34,867 bases of DNA from positions 1 to 34,867 of IMG/VR virus record IMGVR_UViG_3300028548_007929; one strand, written 5' to 3'. Positions 23,027-34,336 of this stretch are shown piece by piece. The stretch is from a virus. Positions within the stretch are counted from its first letter, which is position 1; each line of letters starts with the position of its first letter. Made by a program: the position numbers and the translations under genes. Under the pieces are notes generated by a model, which worked only from the letters and a program-made list of their open reading frames with translations, was not told where the DNA came from and searched no databases.

Positions 23027-23346
23027 TGAAAACTATAGCTTTATTATTGTTAATATCTTCAACTGCTTGGGGACAAATAGTAGTAACTCACTTTAATGCT
23101 GACTGGAACAGTCCTAACAAGGTAAGTTACATTGGAGATTTAACAGACTGTGATATAGTATACGTTGATATAGCTGTAGCACCAGTGTTACAAGCTAAAC
23201 ACGAGATAGTTGTAGTACCTACGGTTGTTATATTTAAAGACGGAGAAGAAGTAAAAAGATTTCAAGCTGATATATCTTTTAGCATGAAAGCAACAAGAGA
23301 GGATATGCAGGAGATAATTGATGAACTAATAATGAGTGATTTTTAA
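23026..23346 (+). CDS. Exported thioredoxin-fold protein lacking both catalytic cysteines
   Basis: A 106-residue protein with a signal peptide (residues 1-16, cleavage after TAWG, Gln at +1). The mature part follows the thioredoxin pattern: strand VVTHFNADW, then an active-site-like WNSPNK (27-32) where WCGPCK is expected, and the cis-proline segment VVPTVVIFKDGEEV (P65). Both catalytic cysteines are Asn (N28, N31), so disulfide exchange is not expected. The only Cys is C42. The helical C-terminus is short. It overlaps the upstream membrane-protein gene. It may act as a periplasmic binding or chaperone-like module; that is inference. The fold assignment is quite sure, and export is likely. 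Confidence 0.7.
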   Translation: MKTIALLLLISSTAWGQIVVTHFNADWNSPNKVSYIGDLTDCDIVYVDIAVAPVLQAKHEIVVVPTVVIFKDGEEVKRFQADISFSMKATREDMQEIIDELIMSDF

Positions 23347-23356
23347 AAAAAATATT

Positions 23357-23542
23357 ATGGCTTACAAAATGAAAGGACTGTCAGGCTTTGGACCAACAAA
23401 ACCTAAAAGCGTAGTTGCAGCGAAGAAGAAGAAAATAAAAAAAGATCCAACGTTTGAGTATGGCTATGAAGAGTCTGAAAAAATAATGAAGCTCAGAAGA
23501 AAAGGTTTAATACCTGGATCTCAAAAGTTTGGTAAAAAATAA
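23357..23542 (+). CDS. Small basic hypothetical protein
   Basis: A 61-residue, Lys-rich protein starting MAYKMKGLSGFG. Residues 13-35 hold a cluster of lysines and the rest is charged and probably helical. The ATG at 23357 was chosen over an upstream in-frame GTG at 23336, which would overlap the thioredoxin-like gene. It ends one base before the start of the T9SS-sorted protein. There is no signal peptide or membrane segment, in contrast to its neighbours. I do not recognise a function. Short basic proteins with this MAYKxKG start seem common in marine phage virion regions, which is an impression, not a search result. Confidence 0.6.
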   Translation: MAYKMKGLSGFGPTKPKSVVAAKKKKIKKDPTFEYGYEESEKIMKLRRKGLIPGSQKFGKK

Positions 23543-23543
23543 T

Positions 23544-25355
23544 ATGAAGTACTTATTCACACTATTACTACTAGTAAATATAGCCTTTGCTCAGTGTCCT
23601 AACGGAACTTACGTAAACATAATTATTAACCCGGACCAATACCCAATTGAAACATCTTGGGCTATAATTGATTACTTTGAAGATACTATTGCTACAGGTG
23701 GTCCTTACGACGATATAGTTGGATACGAGCCGCAGCTAATGCAAGTATGTATACCTAATGGTGATTACTTGTTTAATATATCCGATCAATATGGTGATGG
23801 TGTTGCTGGTAGTTTATGGGGTGGACAAGATGGATCTTACTATGTAGTGCATTGTGGTGATACTATAGTGCAACCAGACTCTGCTAACTTTGGCTTCGCT
23901 GCTTTTCATGGGTTTACACTAGATGATTGTGCTCCGGCACCGCCATTGTATGGTTGCATGGATGATAACTACATAGAATTTTTACCTGTAGCTACTGTTG
24001 ATACAGGTATGTGTTTCATTGAGAAAGCATTTGGCTGTACAGAAGAAGACGCGTTTAACTATGATGAGTATGCTAACACTGATATTACAGTTGATAGCTG
24101 CTTACACACGCTAGAACTTACAGATTTAGCTGGTAACGGCTGGGCTGGAGCTTACGTACAGGTTATACAAGGTTATAATTCTTTAGGTGTATTTACACTA
24201 GAGGATGGCTTTGATACTACGTTTACATTTAGCTTAGATATATCGCAAATAGTAGAGGTTATATTCTTTACAACACAACAATCACAGTTTACTTCAGTAC
24301 AGTGTGGTTACAATTTGTATTCAGAAGAGCACGTTACTATAAGCGAACCAGGAGGATTTGCTAATCCACTTATACCTTTTCAACCAATGCTTGGTATGCC
24401 TTATTGTGGTAATAGTTGCATAGATAAAATATATGGCTGTACAGATGATACAGCTTTAAATTACAACGAGAGTGTGAATACAGATGACGAGAGTTGCTAC
24501 TACGTTTCTGGGTGTACTAATCCAATATACTTAGAGTATAACGCAGACGCTGACTTTGATAACGGAACCTGTGAGACGCTCGTGGTTCTAGGTTGCATGG
24601 ATGAAGCGGCCTTGAATTATAACCCTGAAGCAAACACAGAGTTAGATGGCTCTTGCGTTGATGTAGTTTTGGGATGTATGAGTGAATTAGCGTTTAACTT
24701 TAATCCTAACGCAAACGTAGATGACAACTCGTGTATAGCATACTCGTATGGTTGCACTGATCCATTTGCCTTTAACTATGATTCAATTGCCAACACCGAT
24801 GATGGTGGTTGCATAGAAGTAATTAACGGCTGTACTGATACTACGGCACTAAACTATAATGTAGTTGCAAACACTGATAATGGTTCTTGTATTTATCCAT
24901 TGCCTGGTTGTACTGACCCGACCGCTGAGAATTATAATATATCGGCTAACGTGCCAGACTCTAGTTGTTACTATTCTGCTGGTTGCTACGTTGGTGATAT
25001 ATACTACATTCCTAATGAGTGTTTTAGCTGGGTGATTGAAGTTGATCCTCTTTGCTGTAACAACGATTGGGATAACACGTGTCAAGAATTGTACACATAC
25101 TGCCAGGACGGTTGGACAGGGCCAACAGACATTACAGAGTTTAGAAATAGTTTAGTTATATATCCTAATCCTACAAGTGATTATATAAACATAAGTAAAA
25201 AAGTTGACGCTAGAGTATTTAACTCTATTGGCAAGCTTATCTTATCTAAAAAACATATAGACGTCTTAGATGTCTCTAGATTAAGCAAGGGAATATACTA
25301 CATTGTATTTGATTACAACAAAATAAAGATTAATAAAAAAATTATAAAACAATAG
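23544..25355 (+). CDS. T9SS-sorted cysteine-rich surface protein with GCTDP-type tandem repeats
   Basis: A 603-residue protein built like a secreted Bacteroidota surface protein. Residues 1-16 are a signal peptide (cleavage after AFA, Gln at +1). Residues about 18-130 form a beta domain with NPDQYPIETSW and SDQYGDGVAGS. Two divergent Cys repeats begin at 137 and 164 and a second beta domain covers about 188-295. Seven tandem repeats of about 26 residues begin at 298, 323, 350, 377, 403, 429 and 455, with consensus GCTDxxAxNYNxxANxDDGSC. A Cys-rich segment follows at about 480-520. Residues 535-603 match a type A T9SS sorting domain (IYPNPTSDYINI, then VFNSIGKLI and LSKGIYYIVF). It should cross the inner membrane by Sec and the outer membrane by the host T9SS. 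A TTG at 23529 would add five residues before the signal peptide and was rejected. Confidence 0.8.
   Translation: MKYLFTLLLLVNIAFAQCPNGTYVNIIINPDQYPIETSWAIIDYFEDTIATGGPYDDIVGYEPQLMQVCIPNGDYLFNISDQYGDGVAGSLWGGQDGSYYVVHCGDTIVQPDSANFGFAAFHGFTLDDCAPAPPLYGCMDDNYIEFLPVATVDTGMCFIEKAFGCTEEDAFNYDEYANTDITVDSCLHTLELTDLAGNGWAGAYVQVIQGYNSLGVFTLEDGFDTTFTFSLDISQIVEVIFFTTQQSQFTSVQCGYNLYSEEHVTISEPGGFANPLIPFQPMLGMPYCGNSCIDKIYGCTDDTALNYNESVNTDDESCYYVSGCTNPIYLEYNADADFDNGTCETLVVLGCMDEAALNYNPEANTELDGSCVDVVLGCMSELAFNFNPNANVDDNSCIAYSYGCTDPFAFNYDSIANTDDGGCIEVINGCTDTTALNYNVVANTDNGSCIYPLPGCTDPTAENYNISANVPDSSCYYSAGCYVGDIYYIPNECFSWVIEVDPLCCNNDWDNTCQELYTYCQDGWTGPTDITEFRNSLVIYPNPTSDYINISKKVDARVFNSIGKLILSKKHIDVLDVSRLSKGIYYIVFDYNKIKINKKIIKQ
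24435..24974 (+). repeat. Seven coding tandem repeats of about 78 bases (GCTDP-type)
   Basis: Within the T9SS-sorted protein gene, units begin at 24435, 24510, 24591, 24672, 24750, 24828 and 24906, a period of 75-81 bases. Each unit encodes Gly-Cys near its start, an A-x-N-Y/F-N core and a closing D-x-S/G-C or equivalent, so it has two cysteines likely to pair within the unit. The nucleotide sequences have diverged, so this is an old protein repeat rather than a recent DNA duplication. Confidence 0.8.
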
Positions 25356-29511: not shown

Positions 29512-29551
29512 AAAAAACGGTCCACAAGGTGATTATAACCCTATGGACCGT
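29512..29551 (-). terminator. Rho-independent terminator of the minus-strand block
   Basis: Positions 29517-29524 and 29544-29551 form a perfect eight-base-pair stem (ACGGTCCA with TGGACCGT), with three further inner pairs (29527-29529 with 29540-29542). Read on the minus strand, the stem is followed at once by six T residues (29517 is the first A-T pair, tract to 29512). This is a classic intrinsic terminator placed just after the last minus-strand gene. In the plus direction there is no T tract, so it should stop mainly leftward transcripts. Confidence 0.8.
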
Positions 29552-29617
29552 AAAATTGATATAAGCAACTTGCTTTACGTAGCGATAATGATTATCGTAT
29601 ACGTTATAGCTGTTTAA
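29543..29617 (+). CDS. Possible 24-residue membrane peptide
   Basis: A short reading frame runs from the ATG at 29543, inside the right arm of the terminator hairpin, to TAA at 29615-29617. The peptide has a charged head (MDRKIDISN) and then a purely hydrophobic stretch of about 15 residues rich in Ile, Val, Leu and Tyr, so it could be a single membrane segment. Its end overlaps the converging minus-strand gene by four bases. It lacks a clear ribosome site and may be chance in AT-rich DNA. Hydrophobicity and position are the only support. Confidence 0.3.
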   Translation: MDRKIDISNLLYVAIMIIVYVIAV

Positions 29618-29805
29618 GCTGCTACAGTATTCTTCTTCTCTTGAACTTCAATTCTAACTTTTTGAGCTAGATCTTTGATAGCCTGCATGTTCTTACGAAC
29701 TCTCGTACCAGCAGAAGAATTTCCATCTTCAAACTTTTCTAAATCGTTAATACCTTGTTCTAAGGCTACTAACATGTTGTTGTACATTCTCTGTAATTCT
29801 GTCAT
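29614..29805 (-). CDS. Hc1 / histone H1-like small DNA-binding protein
   Basis: A 63-residue helical protein: a first amphipathic helix (about 3-24), the segment GNSSAGTRVRKNMQ (about 28-41) and a second helix (about 42-59) ending in EVQEKKN. The order GN-x-x-AG-x-R-x-RK, then IK-x-x-AQ-x-x-R, matches the N-terminal helical part of Hc1-type histone H1-like proteins of chlamydiae and Bacteroidota. The long Lys/Ala/Pro-rich tail of full-length members is absent. It would bind or compact DNA, phage or host, or modulate transcription. It is the last gene before the leftward terminator and lies 20 bases after the ribonucleotide reductase gene. The family match is from memory of the pattern. Confidence 0.6.
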   Translation of the reverse strand: MTELQRMYNNMLVALEQGINDLEKFEDGNSSAGTRVRKNMQAIKDLAQKVRIEVQEKKNTVAA

Positions 29806-29825: not shown

Positions 29826-31679
29826 TTAAACTACTTCACAGTTACCACCAGCGCAAGCAAGCTCGCCTGATAGATCCGTGTTGTCATCTAGCTCAACTAC
29901 TTTAGTTAAGTCTACATTAGATAACACTTTCGACATTTCATTAAACTTAGCTTCGTCAATGTCTTCAAACGGAGCCTGTGTGTATGTACCGCCGTTGTAA
30001 GGCAATACAGATAAACCATTGTAATGGTTTCTATTCTCCCACATCCATTTTCCAGCTTCATCCCACTCATCCTCTCGTAAGGAGATCGTAGCCGAAACAT
30101 TATGGCTGTTTGAACCTGTTCTGTGACCTGACTTAACCCACTCAGTAGCTACACGTTTTACACGTTCAAGCGTATCAAATGGTGATTCAGTTCTCATAAT
30201 AGATCCTTCAGGAGCTTTTTGAGGTACAGATATTACTGCTGTATCGTGAGGTCTGAAGAACTCGTCTTCTATTAGCTCAGGATGATTTACAGACAAATAA
30301 GTATATATAGCCTCATTTTTTCCTACGCGCATCCTACGGACATAATAATCATTATGCCATGCATGAATACCCGATGACGTTCCTAGTACCAGAGATGTTG
30401 TCCCTGCAGGCTTAACGGTTGTAGATCGTGCTGATTTGTTTATGCCAATTAGCTTGGCAACTCTAGCGTTCTCTTTGTTAACTATTTTAGCCGCATCAGA
30501 CATATCATATTTAAGCACAGCGCCTGAACCAATACCAGTCATTGACACTCCGATAAGAGCATCTCTTTCAGTTGTTTCCTTCCACACTTCGCGTAAGTAA
30601 TGAAAGTCAGTGTAACCTGCTTGAAGCGTTCCTATAAACGCAGCGGCTTTCACCCTAGCATTAAAGTCATCTTGACTTTCTATATCTGAGACATTAACCT
30701 CACATAAGTTACAAAACTGAAAAGGTCTTAGTGCTATTTCACAGCAAGGATTTGTTCCCCAGTCTTTATCGTTGTTTAGATAAATACCAGGCTCACCAGC
30801 ACCAGACAGTTCAACACGTTTCCACAGATTCATAAAAAAGTCTTCTGTAATTTTGTGTCGCATTAATACAGCAGAGTTGTTAGCTCTACCACGCTGTGGG
30901 TTACTCTCCCACCAATCACCTGATTTACAGGAGATCATTTCATCATCAGCAGCGCTGAATAAACTAATTAAAGCCGCACGTCTTATACCGCCAGCAAGTA
31001 CAGCATCAGCAATATGGCAGATAATATCGTGAACCTCAATAGAACTGAGAGTCGATCCGTCTTCTTTCGCATTTAAAATTCCTTCTAACTTCATTAAACA
31101 TTCCTTTAGCGGCTGAGGACCTGGAGCTTTACCACCAGATGTAACTAGCCTAGCGCCTTTTGGCCTAATATCAGTGTAGTCAAACAACACTTTAGACGTA
31201 CGCTTGTTGCCAAGGTAAGACTTAACTAAAACCTTTACAGCATCTGACCAACCTTCAATTGAATCACCAATAACAAACCTTCTAGTTCGTTTATCAAACG
31301 GCTTAGTTATGTTTGGTAGATCTTTAATGTGGTGTTGTTGTACTGAGTAACCTACTCCACAACCGGACAACAGCAAGAACATAATCTCTGAGAAACAATC
31401 AGGATGGTCAGCAGGCAGATATGAACAGTTATATAAGCGATTAGGAGATATTTCAATGGGCTTACCTGCAAACTGTAACGAACGCATGCTTGGTAAAATC
31501 TTTTTATTGTAGACATATTTATATGCTTCATCTATTTGGTCTATTAGTTCTGGGTATTTCTTTTTGTGCATTTTGATATTACGGTCTACAAGTTCAGACC
31601 AAGTCTCTCGGCGATTAAGCTCCGGGTTGTACTTGGCGTACTTCATGTGTACGGTAATATCTGAGAGGATGTTATTCAT
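29826..31679 (-). CDS. nrdJ: Class II (adenosylcobalamin-dependent) ribonucleotide reductase, monomeric type
   Basis: A 617-residue enzyme that reduces ribonucleotides to deoxyribonucleotides. C312 in N310-P-C-C-E314 corresponds to the thiyl-radical Cys with its Asn and Glu partners. C85 (LYNCSYLP) and C323 (FCNLCE, eleven residues after C312) form the redox pair, with the same spacing as C408/C419 in the Lactobacillus leichmannii enzyme. The C-terminus has C609-x4-C614, the shuttle pair that re-reduces the active site. SGGKAPGP (181-188) is the usual substrate-loop region. No N-terminal ATP-cone is present. These features fit the B12-dependent monomeric RTPR class, common in marine phages, rather than class I, and no small subunit gene is nearby. 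It shares the operon with thymidylate synthase and MazG-type genes. Confidence 0.92.
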   Translation of the reverse strand: MNNILSDITVHMKYAKYNPELNRRETWSELVDRNIKMHKKKYPELIDQIDEAYKYVYNKKILPSMRSLQFAGKPIEISPNRLYNCSYLPADHPDCFSEIMFLLLSGCGVGYSVQQHHIKDLPNITKPFDKRTRRFVIGDSIEGWSDAVKVLVKSYLGNKRTSKVLFDYTDIRPKGARLVTSGGKAPGPQPLKECLMKLEGILNAKEDGSTLSSIEVHDIICHIADAVLAGGIRRAALISLFSAADDEMISCKSGDWWESNPQRGRANNSAVLMRHKITEDFFMNLWKRVELSGAGEPGIYLNNDKDWGTNPCCEIALRPFQFCNLCEVNVSDIESQDDFNARVKAAAFIGTLQAGYTDFHYLREVWKETTERDALIGVSMTGIGSGAVLKYDMSDAAKIVNKENARVAKLIGINKSARSTTVKPAGTTSLVLGTSSGIHAWHNDYYVRRMRVGKNEAIYTYLSVNHPELIEDEFFRPHDTAVISVPQKAPEGSIMRTESPFDTLERVKRVATEWVKSGHRTGSNSHNVSATISLREDEWDEAGKWMWENRNHYNGLSVLPYNGGTYTQAPFEDIDEAKFNEMSKVLSNVDLTKVVELDDNTDLSGELACAGGNCEVV

Positions 31680-31826: not shown

Positions 31827-32270
31827 TTATTTTTGTTTTAAAATTAATAATACTGTTTCTTCGCAGTCTTTTTGATTTTGAGGTTTATATAGAGTTACAT
31901 GAGGTAAATTGTCTTTTACGTGTTTTTTAAACATTTTCCATCTCATTGGAAAACTTTCGTTTGCTCTACCTTTGCATTCAATAATAAATGTATCAGCAAC
32001 AAAGTCTGGAGTGTACTTTACGTTAAGTATTTTTTTATTACCCCTGTTTTTGTACTCACCTTTACCATTGCCTTGTTTTTCATAACAATCGTTAGCAAAC
32101 TCAAAGCTCTCTTGCAATACGTATGTTTGTCCTTCGTAGTGAGATTGTATTTTAGCTTTTTTTAAGGCTAAATACATATACTTCTCTAAACCTGAAGCAA
32201 ACTGAATACCATCACAGACAACTTTTTTAGCACGCACTGGACCACGTTTTCTAGACTTTTTCATCATCAT
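31827..32270 (-). CDS. PD-(D/E)XK endonuclease (endonuclease I / DUF1064-like)
   Basis: A 147-residue nuclease. An early FASGLEKYMY contains E29, followed by YTPDF (D89) and IIECKGR (E98, K100), which form the canonical E...PD...ExK metal site. The basic N-terminus (KKSRKRGPVRAKK) suits DNA binding. The layout resembles phage T7 endonuclease I and DUF1064 proteins, which resolve branched DNA or cut DNA for packaging or host-DNA breakdown; which of these applies here is inference. A Lys/Gly-rich insert lies between E29 and D89 (about 66-80). Three consecutive ATGs (32270, 32267, 32264) could start it; the first is used here, overlapping the upstream gene by 20 bases. Confidence 0.75.
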   Translation of the reverse strand: MMMKKSRKRGPVRAKKVVCDGIQFASGLEKYMYLALKKAKIQSHYEGQTYVLQESFEFANDCYEKQGNGKGEYKNRGNKKILNVKYTPDFVADTFIIECKGRANESFPMRWKMFKKHVKDNLPHVTLYKPQNQKDCEETVLLILKQK

Positions 32271-32520
32271 CAAACTTTTTGATTAAAGCTTCTTCAGATA
32301 AGTCTTGAAGCTCTTCGCGCGCAGCTTGTATGTATAGCACGGCATCCATAAGCTCTTCTTGTACATCGTTTAAGTAGCCTACTAAGTTTTTCATTTTAGT
32401 AGTACGCTCACTATGTAGTGTTTGGCCATACTTTTCAAAGCCTATGTCAGATCGCTGAACAAACTTGTTTACAACATTTCTAACTACTGGATCTCTAAAT
32501 TCAATTGTTTGCTTTATCAT
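32251..32520 (-). CDS. Small all-alpha NTP-pyrophosphatase-like protein
   Basis: An 89-residue helical protein. FEKYGQTL (28-35) is followed by a helix with VQEELMDAVLYIQAAREEL (about 53-71), where E55, E56 and D59 form an EExxD pattern. This resembles the metal-binding helix of MazG-like all-alpha NTP pyrophosphohydrolases, and similar short proteins occur next to nucleotide-metabolism genes in phages. It lacks a second full ExxD motif, so it may be a binding subunit or a diverged enzyme. It ends in TAG and overlaps the endonuclease start. It begins one base after the larger MazG-fusion gene, which suggests a shared role in nucleotide-pool control. Confidence 0.5.
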   Translation of the reverse strand: MIKQTIEFRDPVVRNVVNKFVQRSDIGFEKYGQTLHSERTTKMKNLVGYLNDVQEELMDAVLYIQAAREELQDLSEEALIKKFDDDEKV

Positions 32521-32521
32521 A

Positions 32522-33523
32522 TTAGTTATCTTTTACAAATGTTCCATTAATCATTTTGCCTTTACGTTTTGAAATTACATCGTAAGCTTCTTGAATACAC
32601 TCTTCAATTGAAACTCCGCAAAGTTCAGCTAAGTTAGTTAACACAACGACCATATCACCAATACCATCAACTACTTCGTCAATATCATCTTTTAACAAAG
32701 CTCTACCAACTTCGCCAGCTTCTTCCATAAGCTTTATGTATTGAGTTTTAGGATCGCCTTTATCATATAAGCCTCTTTCATCAGCCCACTCTCTAATACA
32801 CTCAAATATATTTTCATTGCATTGGTTGCAATTAGCTGCGGATTGGTTTTTGTATTCTGCAAATAGCTCTGCAAATCTCATTAGTTGATCTTGATCGTAT
32901 TCAGGTTTTTCAGCTGGATCAAATATAGTATCCCATTCGCCAAGAGATTCTTGAAACTCTTCAGCAGCAGTCATAGTGTAATAATCTACTAAAGCTTCTT
33001 GATCAGTCTTAGCATCGTATGTTGTACCAACAATAATATTTCTGTGCGGATCTTTATCGTAAAACAAGCTAAAAGCTTTGTTGTATATGTAACACCTTTC
33101 ACTGCTGAACTGAGAAGATCTAACATTAGCCATTATCCAGTTTACTGTTTGGCTTGTGATAGTAAATTCACCGTGCTCAGTTTGCCATTGCATACCAATT
33201 TCATCCATCAACTGGCCTTTTAACTTGTTGATAGGGCAAGGAAACGTTGTTGTTGCCTCTGTTACGTTTATTTTCATTTTCTTAAATTGTTTAAAGTTAT
33301 TACTGTATAGGTCTTTGTAGAGCTGTTCGTCAACCTTGTAACCAAAAGAGTCTTGCATTTCATGCTCTAGCTTTGATATGTAGCCTATGTCGTCAGACCA
33401 AGCTAATATTTCAAACTCACCCTCTTGGTATCCTTGTTGTTTTACAACTCTTTCTTCAATGTTGTTTGTTACACCAACCTTTTTTCCAGGTATGTGGTAT
33501 AACGCATAAGTTTTGTTTATCAT
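32522..33523 (-). CDS. GIY-YIG-like domain fused to MazG nucleotide pyrophosphohydrolase
   Basis: A 333-residue two-part protein. Residues 5-65 look like a GIY-YIG-type domain: YALYHIPGKKVGVTNNIEER (strand, turn and KVGxTxNxxxR) and then KLEHEMQDSFGYKVD with candidate catalytic E53 or E55. Residues about 90-250 are a poorly defined middle with two close Cys (NCNQCN, 231-236). Residues about 255-330 are MazG: EEAGE (267-271) and DEVVDGIGD (282-290) supply the metal ligands, ending in the RKGKMINGTFVK tail usual for phage MazG proteins. MazG hydrolyses (d)NTPs and, in host cells, can lower ppGpp. Its start overlaps the thymidylate synthase stop (ATGA), so the two are coupled. The fusion is clear; activity of the first domain is uncertain. 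Confidence 0.7.
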   Translation of the reverse strand: MINKTYALYHIPGKKVGVTNNIEERVVKQQGYQEGEFEILAWSDDIGYISKLEHEMQDSFGYKVDEQLYKDLYSNNFKQFKKMKINVTEATTTFPCPINKLKGQLMDEIGMQWQTEHGEFTITSQTVNWIMANVRSSQFSSERCYIYNKAFSLFYDKDPHRNIIVGTTYDAKTDQEALVDYYTMTAAEEFQESLGEWDTIFDPAEKPEYDQDQLMRFAELFAEYKNQSAANCNQCNENIFECIREWADERGLYDKGDPKTQYIKLMEEAGEVGRALLKDDIDEVVDGIGDMVVVLTNLAELCGVSIEECIQEAYDVISKRKGKMINGTFVKDN

Positions 33524-34206
33524 AAGTGGTAATTTCTAGTTTTTAAATTAGGTATTTTATCGTTATACAAGTGTAGGTTGTGCGCAAAGTGGTAATATGT
33601 ACCAAGCTCATATCCTGTCTCGTAAGCAACTAACATCTGCAAACTTGAAAAACAGTATTGATCATTACAGAAGCCGTACCAGATGTCATTAGAACGCATT
33701 ACAACAGACATGTTAAGCTTATTGTCTACAACTGTGAATTGAACAGCGTAAGTACACGGTGTGTCTGTGTCATACATGTGTTGCTCTTTACCATCGTATA
33801 TAGATATTGCCGCTTGCCTAGTGTTTTTGTTTTGCTTTAATTGTTCTATAACTTTATCTAACTGTTTAAATCTATTCCATTGATAACCGTAGTTAGAATT
33901 AACTTGACCGTATTTATCAGCCATTGTTCTCCATATAACTGGAACCTTACCATATATCTCGCCAAGCTTTGATATGTTAGGATCACCAGATAGATACCAT
34001 TGCCATTCAGCTTCAGCATACTCTTGTGACCACTTGCGATCTTTGTTAAGTATGTAGTTGTTCTTTGGGTTAGTAATATAAAAGCCTACATTAAATAAAG
34101 CTTTTGTATTTGCAAACTCAACGCCATCACGAAACAATTTCCAGTACCAATAATCATACGCTTCTGATGCAGAGTTGAATGATGTTTTAGTTGTAGGACT
34201 AAGCAT
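33520..34206 (-). CDS. thyA: Thymidylate synthase (ThyA-type)
   Basis: Numbered from the ATG at 34206, this is a 228-residue enzyme that methylates dUMP to dTMP with methylene-tetrahydrofolate. C151 in DTPCTYAVQF is the catalytic Cys. R171-S-N-D174-IWYGFCND is the phosphate- and nucleotide-binding segment, and H212-L-Y214-N matches the HxYxN motif. AEAEWQWYLSG (64-74) and YGYQW (106-110) are typical of phage members. Another in-frame ATG at 34284 would add 26 residues, but they run through a separate small gene and are not ThyA-like. The 34206 start overlaps that gene's stop by eight bases, fitting coupled translation. It ends in TGA overlapping the next ATG. At 228 residues it is shorter than the usual 260 or so. 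Confidence 0.85.
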   Translation of the reverse strand: MLSPTTKTSFNSASEAYDYWYWKLFRDGVEFANTKALFNVGFYITNPKNNYILNKDRKWSQEYAEAEWQWYLSGDPNISKLGEIYGKVPVIWRTMADKYGQVNSNYGYQWNRFKQLDKVIEQLKQNKNTRQAAISIYDGKEQHMYDTDTPCTYAVQFTVVDNKLNMSVVMRSNDIWYGFCNDQYCFSSLQMLVAYETGYELGTYYHFAHNLHLYNDKIPNLKTRNYHL

Positions 34207-34336
34207 AAGCCTGTCCGTTATAAACAAACCACTCTTTGATTTTAGCAGTCTCATACACTTTTTGCAAAACTCTAGTTTTACCATTCATTGTTAATGAAAT
34301 TCTTTTATTTGATAGTACTTTAATTATATTTGTCAT
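34199..34336 (-). CDS. Small hypothetical protein (45 residues) overlapping the thymidylate synthase start
   Basis: ATG at 34336 to TAG at 34199-34201 gives 45 residues. The frame overlaps the upstream 85-residue gene by 17 bases and the thymidylate synthase start at 34206 by eight bases, so it bridges what would otherwise be a gap. The peptide is basic (MTNIIKVLSNKRISL, then KTRVLQKVYETAKIKEWFVYNG) and mixed alpha/beta. It is in a different frame from the longer thymidylate synthase extension, so only one of the two can be a real coding stretch; the overlap pattern favours this one. Function unknown. Confidence 0.55.
   Translation of the reverse strand: MTNIIKVLSNKRISLTMNGKTRVLQKVYETAKIKEWFVYNGQAYA

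Follow-up and report, generated by a model that had tools for sequence, protein, structure and literature searches.

A short, tail-less Hc1-family protein encoded directly behind the ribonucleotide reductase gene of a phage with a probable Bacteroidota host

The stretch of viral DNA analyzed here, referred to below as the window, comprises 34,867 nucleotides (IMG/VR record IMGVR_UViG_3300028548_007929), and its minus strand bears a unit of DNA-precursor and recombination genes that ends in a small gene of the Hc1 family. In order, the unit encodes a thymidylate synthase of the ThyA type (33520..34284; PF00303, E 1.4e-29), a MazG-domain pyrophosphohydrolase (32522..33523; PF03819; phrog_1992, E 1e-33), a DUF1064 or phage Holliday-junction-resolvase-like nuclease (31827..32273; PF06356, E 4e-10; phrog_190, E 1e-14), an adenosylcobalamin-dependent (class II) ribonucleotide reductase, or RNR (29826..31679; phrog_367, E 3e-131; TIGR02505 at 275.8 bits, below the curated cut-off of 340), and, from an ATG start, a 63-aa Hc1-family (PF07432) protein (29614..29805). 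Only 20 nt separate the RNR stop from the Hc1 start, and just downstream of Hc1 on the same strand lies a strong intrinsic-terminator-like hairpin (29517..29551) with a 14-bp stem, a 7-nt loop and a U run, whose fold z-score is -6.3 against shuffled sequences. Hc1 is therefore the last gene of the minus-strand unit, which converges with a plus-strand module whose genes include virion structural proteins. An Rfam scan of the window gave no matches.

The window is a fragment of a fuller phage, as a 63.6-kb contig (L002) contains a 100% identical stretch. Farther upstream on the Hc1 strand, the fuller copy encodes an Erf annealing protein together with exonuclease VIII-like and sigma-factor-like genes. 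The RNR-Hc1 order, with a gap of 15-21 nt, is kept in 14 contigs (L002-L014 and L077) plus the window. Class II RNRs of Vibrio phage VPs20 and Oceanospirillum phage PD0307 (H24-H26), 61-62% identical to that of the window, carry the public annotation “recombinase”, which is probably a misannotation.

Several plus-strand genes of this phage are also worth recording. GroEL-like and GroES-like genes adjoin one another in the fuller copy (L105:14715-16530). Several small lysine- and methionine-rich proteins, most of them starting MAFKM, are encoded at L105:12834-14344 and possibly at 23336-23542 of the window; the two of them that were scanned had no match in PHROGs. A 608-aa protein encoded at 23529-25355 of the window possesses repeats of the type GCTD..ALNYN..AN.D.GSC and a C-terminal Por_Secre_tail domain for type IX secretion sorting (PF18962, E 1e-10). 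Such a protein is odd for a phage and points to a Bacteroidota host; the host of the window phage most likely belongs to that group.

The 63-aa ORF, whose product is MTELQRMYNNMLVALEQGINDLEKFEDGNSSAGTRVRKNMQAIKDLAQKVRIEVQEKKNTVAA, is a genuine gene under purifying selection, since it is kept in related phage contigs (13 from IMG/VR, all of one lineage and 59-100% identical, comprising twelve and one that is 100% identical) with a dN/dS of 0.10-0.27 in the pairs where this was measurable. The original prediction had recognized an Hc1-type N-terminal motif here, and both the named pattern and the family assignment hold up. In a profile search the protein scored 62.1 bits against Pfam PF07432 (E 4.6e-17; curated cut-off 23.5), with residues 8-60 aligned to profile positions 4-57 of 57 (54 of the 57 positions), a score far beyond chance; no other ORF in the whole record matched the family. 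The chlamydial HctA equivalog NF051889 reached 18.8 bits over residues 8-48, well below its cut-off of 100, which places the protein in the Hc1 domain family but not as HctA itself. No linker-histone family was among its Pfam matches, and PHROGs offered no convincing family (best E 0.0046). On this profile evidence, the window protein is a true PF07432 member of the short form common in Bacteroidota, sharing with it a length of about 57-68 aa, an AGTRxRK core and the absence of a basic tail. Examples of that form, annotated as Hc1 or “histone H1”, come from Marivirga (L022) and Flammeovirga (L026), and the pattern in common is DxxKF...AGTRxRK...K..AQ..R...Q..K.

The fold is predicted with high confidence. 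AlphaFold2, supplied with a 29-sequence alignment, modeled a hairpin made of two helices (residues 3-26 and residues 31-62) at a mean pLDDT of 96.4, as the original prediction had anticipated, and the hairpin has no strands, which sets it apart from the winged helix of eukaryotic H1/H5. Conservation was judged across two sets, 37 further distinct copies from phages and 28 from cells, the latter being the best-scoring HMM matches, and the invariant or near-invariant residues are D21, K24, F25, N29, A32-G33-T34-R35, R37-K38, K44, Q48, R51 and K58. R37, K44, R51 and K58 follow one another at seven-residue spacing on helix 2 and would thus line one face of it as a basic stripe. All four are invariant in the 28 cell copies; R37 and R51 are invariant and K44 and K58 nearly so in the 37 phage copies, where conservation partly reflects selection by search patterns built on GTRVRK, with K44, R51 and K58 lying outside the pattern of the second phage search.

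A sequence search of solved structures with the window protein gave no match even at E 10, and no experimentally determined Hc1 structure turned up that could serve as a reference. Foldseek and VIA-align searches of the PDB returned generic helical hairpins only (no E below 0.36; Z up to 9.3), including Med11/22, CDK2AP1/2, Aqs1, FemA and designed bundles. Scores of this size also arise between unrelated helical bundles, and the fold was therefore not taken as a guide to function. The nearest predicted viral proteins by fold were a protein of Virus NIOZ-UU157 (51% identical) and a “Histone H1 [uncultured virus]”; the latter superposes on the window model with TM scores of 0.87/0.89, but at an E of 0.11.

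The window protein matches only the first, N-terminal part of chlamydial Hc1. In that protein the N-terminal domain serves for dimerization and the C-terminal domain for DNA binding (PMC2848022), the latter being the lysine-rich tail of HctA. The window protein has no such tail; it ends in ...QEKKNTVAA and has a net charge of +1. To this extent the original prediction of a missing tail stands, but its absence is no phage peculiarity, since cellular copies of Bacteroidota are mostly tail-less too. PF07432 is carried by 177 of the 296 Bacteroidota genomes sampled, lengths ranged from 57 to 68 aa in the 42 cellular copies that were read completely, and a K-rich tail was seen in just one of the nine longest open frames of cellular Hc1. 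That one (L108; G085:C27) possesses an alanine/proline/lysine-rich, H1-like tail and is rare among those examined. All 37 distinct phage copies are likewise short (58-69 aa). Judged from these sequences, the tail-less form is the usual Hc1 of Bacteroidota. Phage copies differ from cell copies in having a few extra N-terminal residues and in being less basic, with a mean net charge of +0.7 versus +3.1 (Mann-Whitney p 4e-7, kinship ignored). Given the missing tail, the charge near zero and the lower basicity relative to cells, DNA binding by phage Hc1 may be weak or absent.

Hc1 genes of other phages often have DNA-related neighbors, with the SSB and UvsX families scanned in representatives and judged by sequence likeness in the remainder. 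In most members of a second phage lineage, Hc1 directly follows a gp32-like single-stranded DNA-binding protein (SSB) gene, with UvsX shortly downstream; SSB-Hc1 pairs occur in L015, L016, L081, L083-L085 and L093-L097, and L082 retains SSB upstream. Elsewhere, Hc1 directly follows UvsX (L020) or has phage exonuclease genes nearby (L019 and L078). There are exceptions: an HldE-like nucleotidyltransferase is the neighbor in L087-L102 (in L090, the one scanned, an exonuclease gene also lies two genes downstream), PhoH lies beside Hc1 in L017 and L018, virion-type genes do so in L103, and the neighborhood in L092 was unreadable. Overall, the link of phage Hc1 with replication and recombination genes is suggestive. 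In a single contig (L017:349-821, plus strand), Hc1 abuts a SET-domain gene (PF00856); methylation of Hc1 by a chlamydial SET protein has been both reported and disputed (PMC2904774).

In Bacteroidota cells, Hc1 adjoins other genes. The commonest neighbor is a BioF/serine-palmitoyltransferase-like gene located upstream on the same strand at 18 loci, several of them from one genus; its best NCBIfam match was SerpalmtaseCFB, at 313 bits (below the cut-off of 640). In L021, L022, L035, L045-L049 and others, the cellular Hc1 lies about 90-340 nt downstream of this gene. In a tree built on 64 columns, and hence of poor resolution, starred branches force at least two changes between phage and cell, so that a single origin for all phage copies is disfavored.

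Phage-encoded PF07432 proteins are already known. Moraphages, jumbo phages with predicted Bacteroidota hosts, encode a histone H1-like PF07432 protein for which packaging was suggested (PMC12619734); the window protein resembles it in family and in predicted host group, whereas no association with an RNR operon is reported for moraphages. The “histone H1” of Synechococcus phage S-SRM01 (QPX48246.1) is also tail-less, at 62 aa with an AGTRARK motif, and is 44.9% identical to the window protein over 49 residues, although this is a cyanophage protein whose neighbors are mostly hypothetical. New to the present analysis are the conservation of the RNR-Hc1 pairing and, in a second lineage, the placement of Hc1 among SSB and UvsX genes, as well as the demonstration that lacking a tail is the norm. 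A literature search found no study of a short Bacteroidota Hc1 protein.

What might such a protein do? The reading we favor, tentatively and at a little less than even odds, is that it is a small dimerizing accessory or architectural factor that serves phage DNA during replication or recombination. It would be made alongside the nucleotide-synthesis enzymes during phage DNA replication and, by analogy with the N-terminal dimerization domain of chlamydial Hc1, could pair via its hairpin; the basic face of helix 2 (R37, K44, R51 and K58, with R35 and K38) would then make contact with nucleic acid, either DNA or RNA, or with a partner bound to DNA, and the dimer could act as an organizing factor on the phage DNA. 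Dimer formation, contact with nucleic acid or replisome and an early role are all inferred, and the reading draws on the Pfam match, the hairpin, the dN/dS values and the basic stripe, on the adjacency to RNR, the terminator and the Erf, exonuclease and sigma-factor genes upstream, and on the SSB, UvsX and exonuclease neighbors in other phages. Against it, the part of chlamydial Hc1 that binds DNA is precisely the tail that is missing, phage copies are the less basic ones, and the phage neighbors are not universal. Confidence in a function is restrained mainly because the serine-palmitoyltransferase-like neighbor in cells does not point to DNA.

Other roles were weighed against this accessory one. 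The original prediction proposed that a tail-less protein could be a dominant-negative competitor of the host nucleoid protein, and this was rejected, as Bacteroidota host copies usually lack the tail themselves and would seldom offer a tailed target. A host-directed role could nevertheless take another form, in which phage Hc1 pairs with the short Hc1 of the host, or replaces it on a partner, and so disturbs the nucleoid or expression early in infection. The hairpin core common to phage and host proteins makes mixed dimers conceivable, identity with Bacteroidota proteins reaches about 67% in the matched region, and the lower basicity of the phage copies would fit; yet 119 of the 296 genomes are without PF07432, and the gene sits at the end of a nucleotide-metabolism unit, so that we regard this role as unlikely. 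Still more doubtful is a role in assisting or regulating the phage RNR, with which Hc1 would be co-translated. The preserved gene order and spacing speak for such a role, but Vibrio phage VPs20, Microcystis phage Mel-JY01 and Oceanospirillum phage PD0307, with RNRs 61-66% identical, gave no Hc1 match, and in the majority of other phages with Hc1 the gene is not next to an RNR. That similar RNRs in phages of other hosts come without an Hc1 match speaks against Hc1 being an obligatory subunit of RNR and favors a trait shared by phages whose hosts carry the Hc1 family.

Packaging of phage DNA by a condensing virion protein, put forward in the original prediction and by the moraphage authors, has the family name and the precedent of chlamydial DNA compaction in its favor. 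It was rejected as very improbable, because the gene lies outside the late, plus-strand structural module, within the nucleotide-metabolism and recombination unit, and elsewhere beside SSB, UvsX and exonuclease genes. Moreover, its product has no basic tail and a charge of only +1, and the small lysine-rich proteins encoded on the plus strand of the same phage would fit better.

Short Hc1 proteins occur in more than half of the Bacteroidota sampled and are named “histone H1” by homology, though the part that binds DNA in chlamydiae is absent from them. The phage copies, located in replication and nucleotide-metabolism units, provide an independent hint at the role of the domain alone, and the window protein is small and easy to test. 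It is conceivable, if rather doubtful, that Bacteroidota phages acquired a short Hc1 on repeated occasions and built it into their replication units as a dedicated small organizer of their replicating DNA, with RNR in one lineage and with SSB and UvsX in another. If true, this would be the first functional setting for the whole tail-less Hc1 family.
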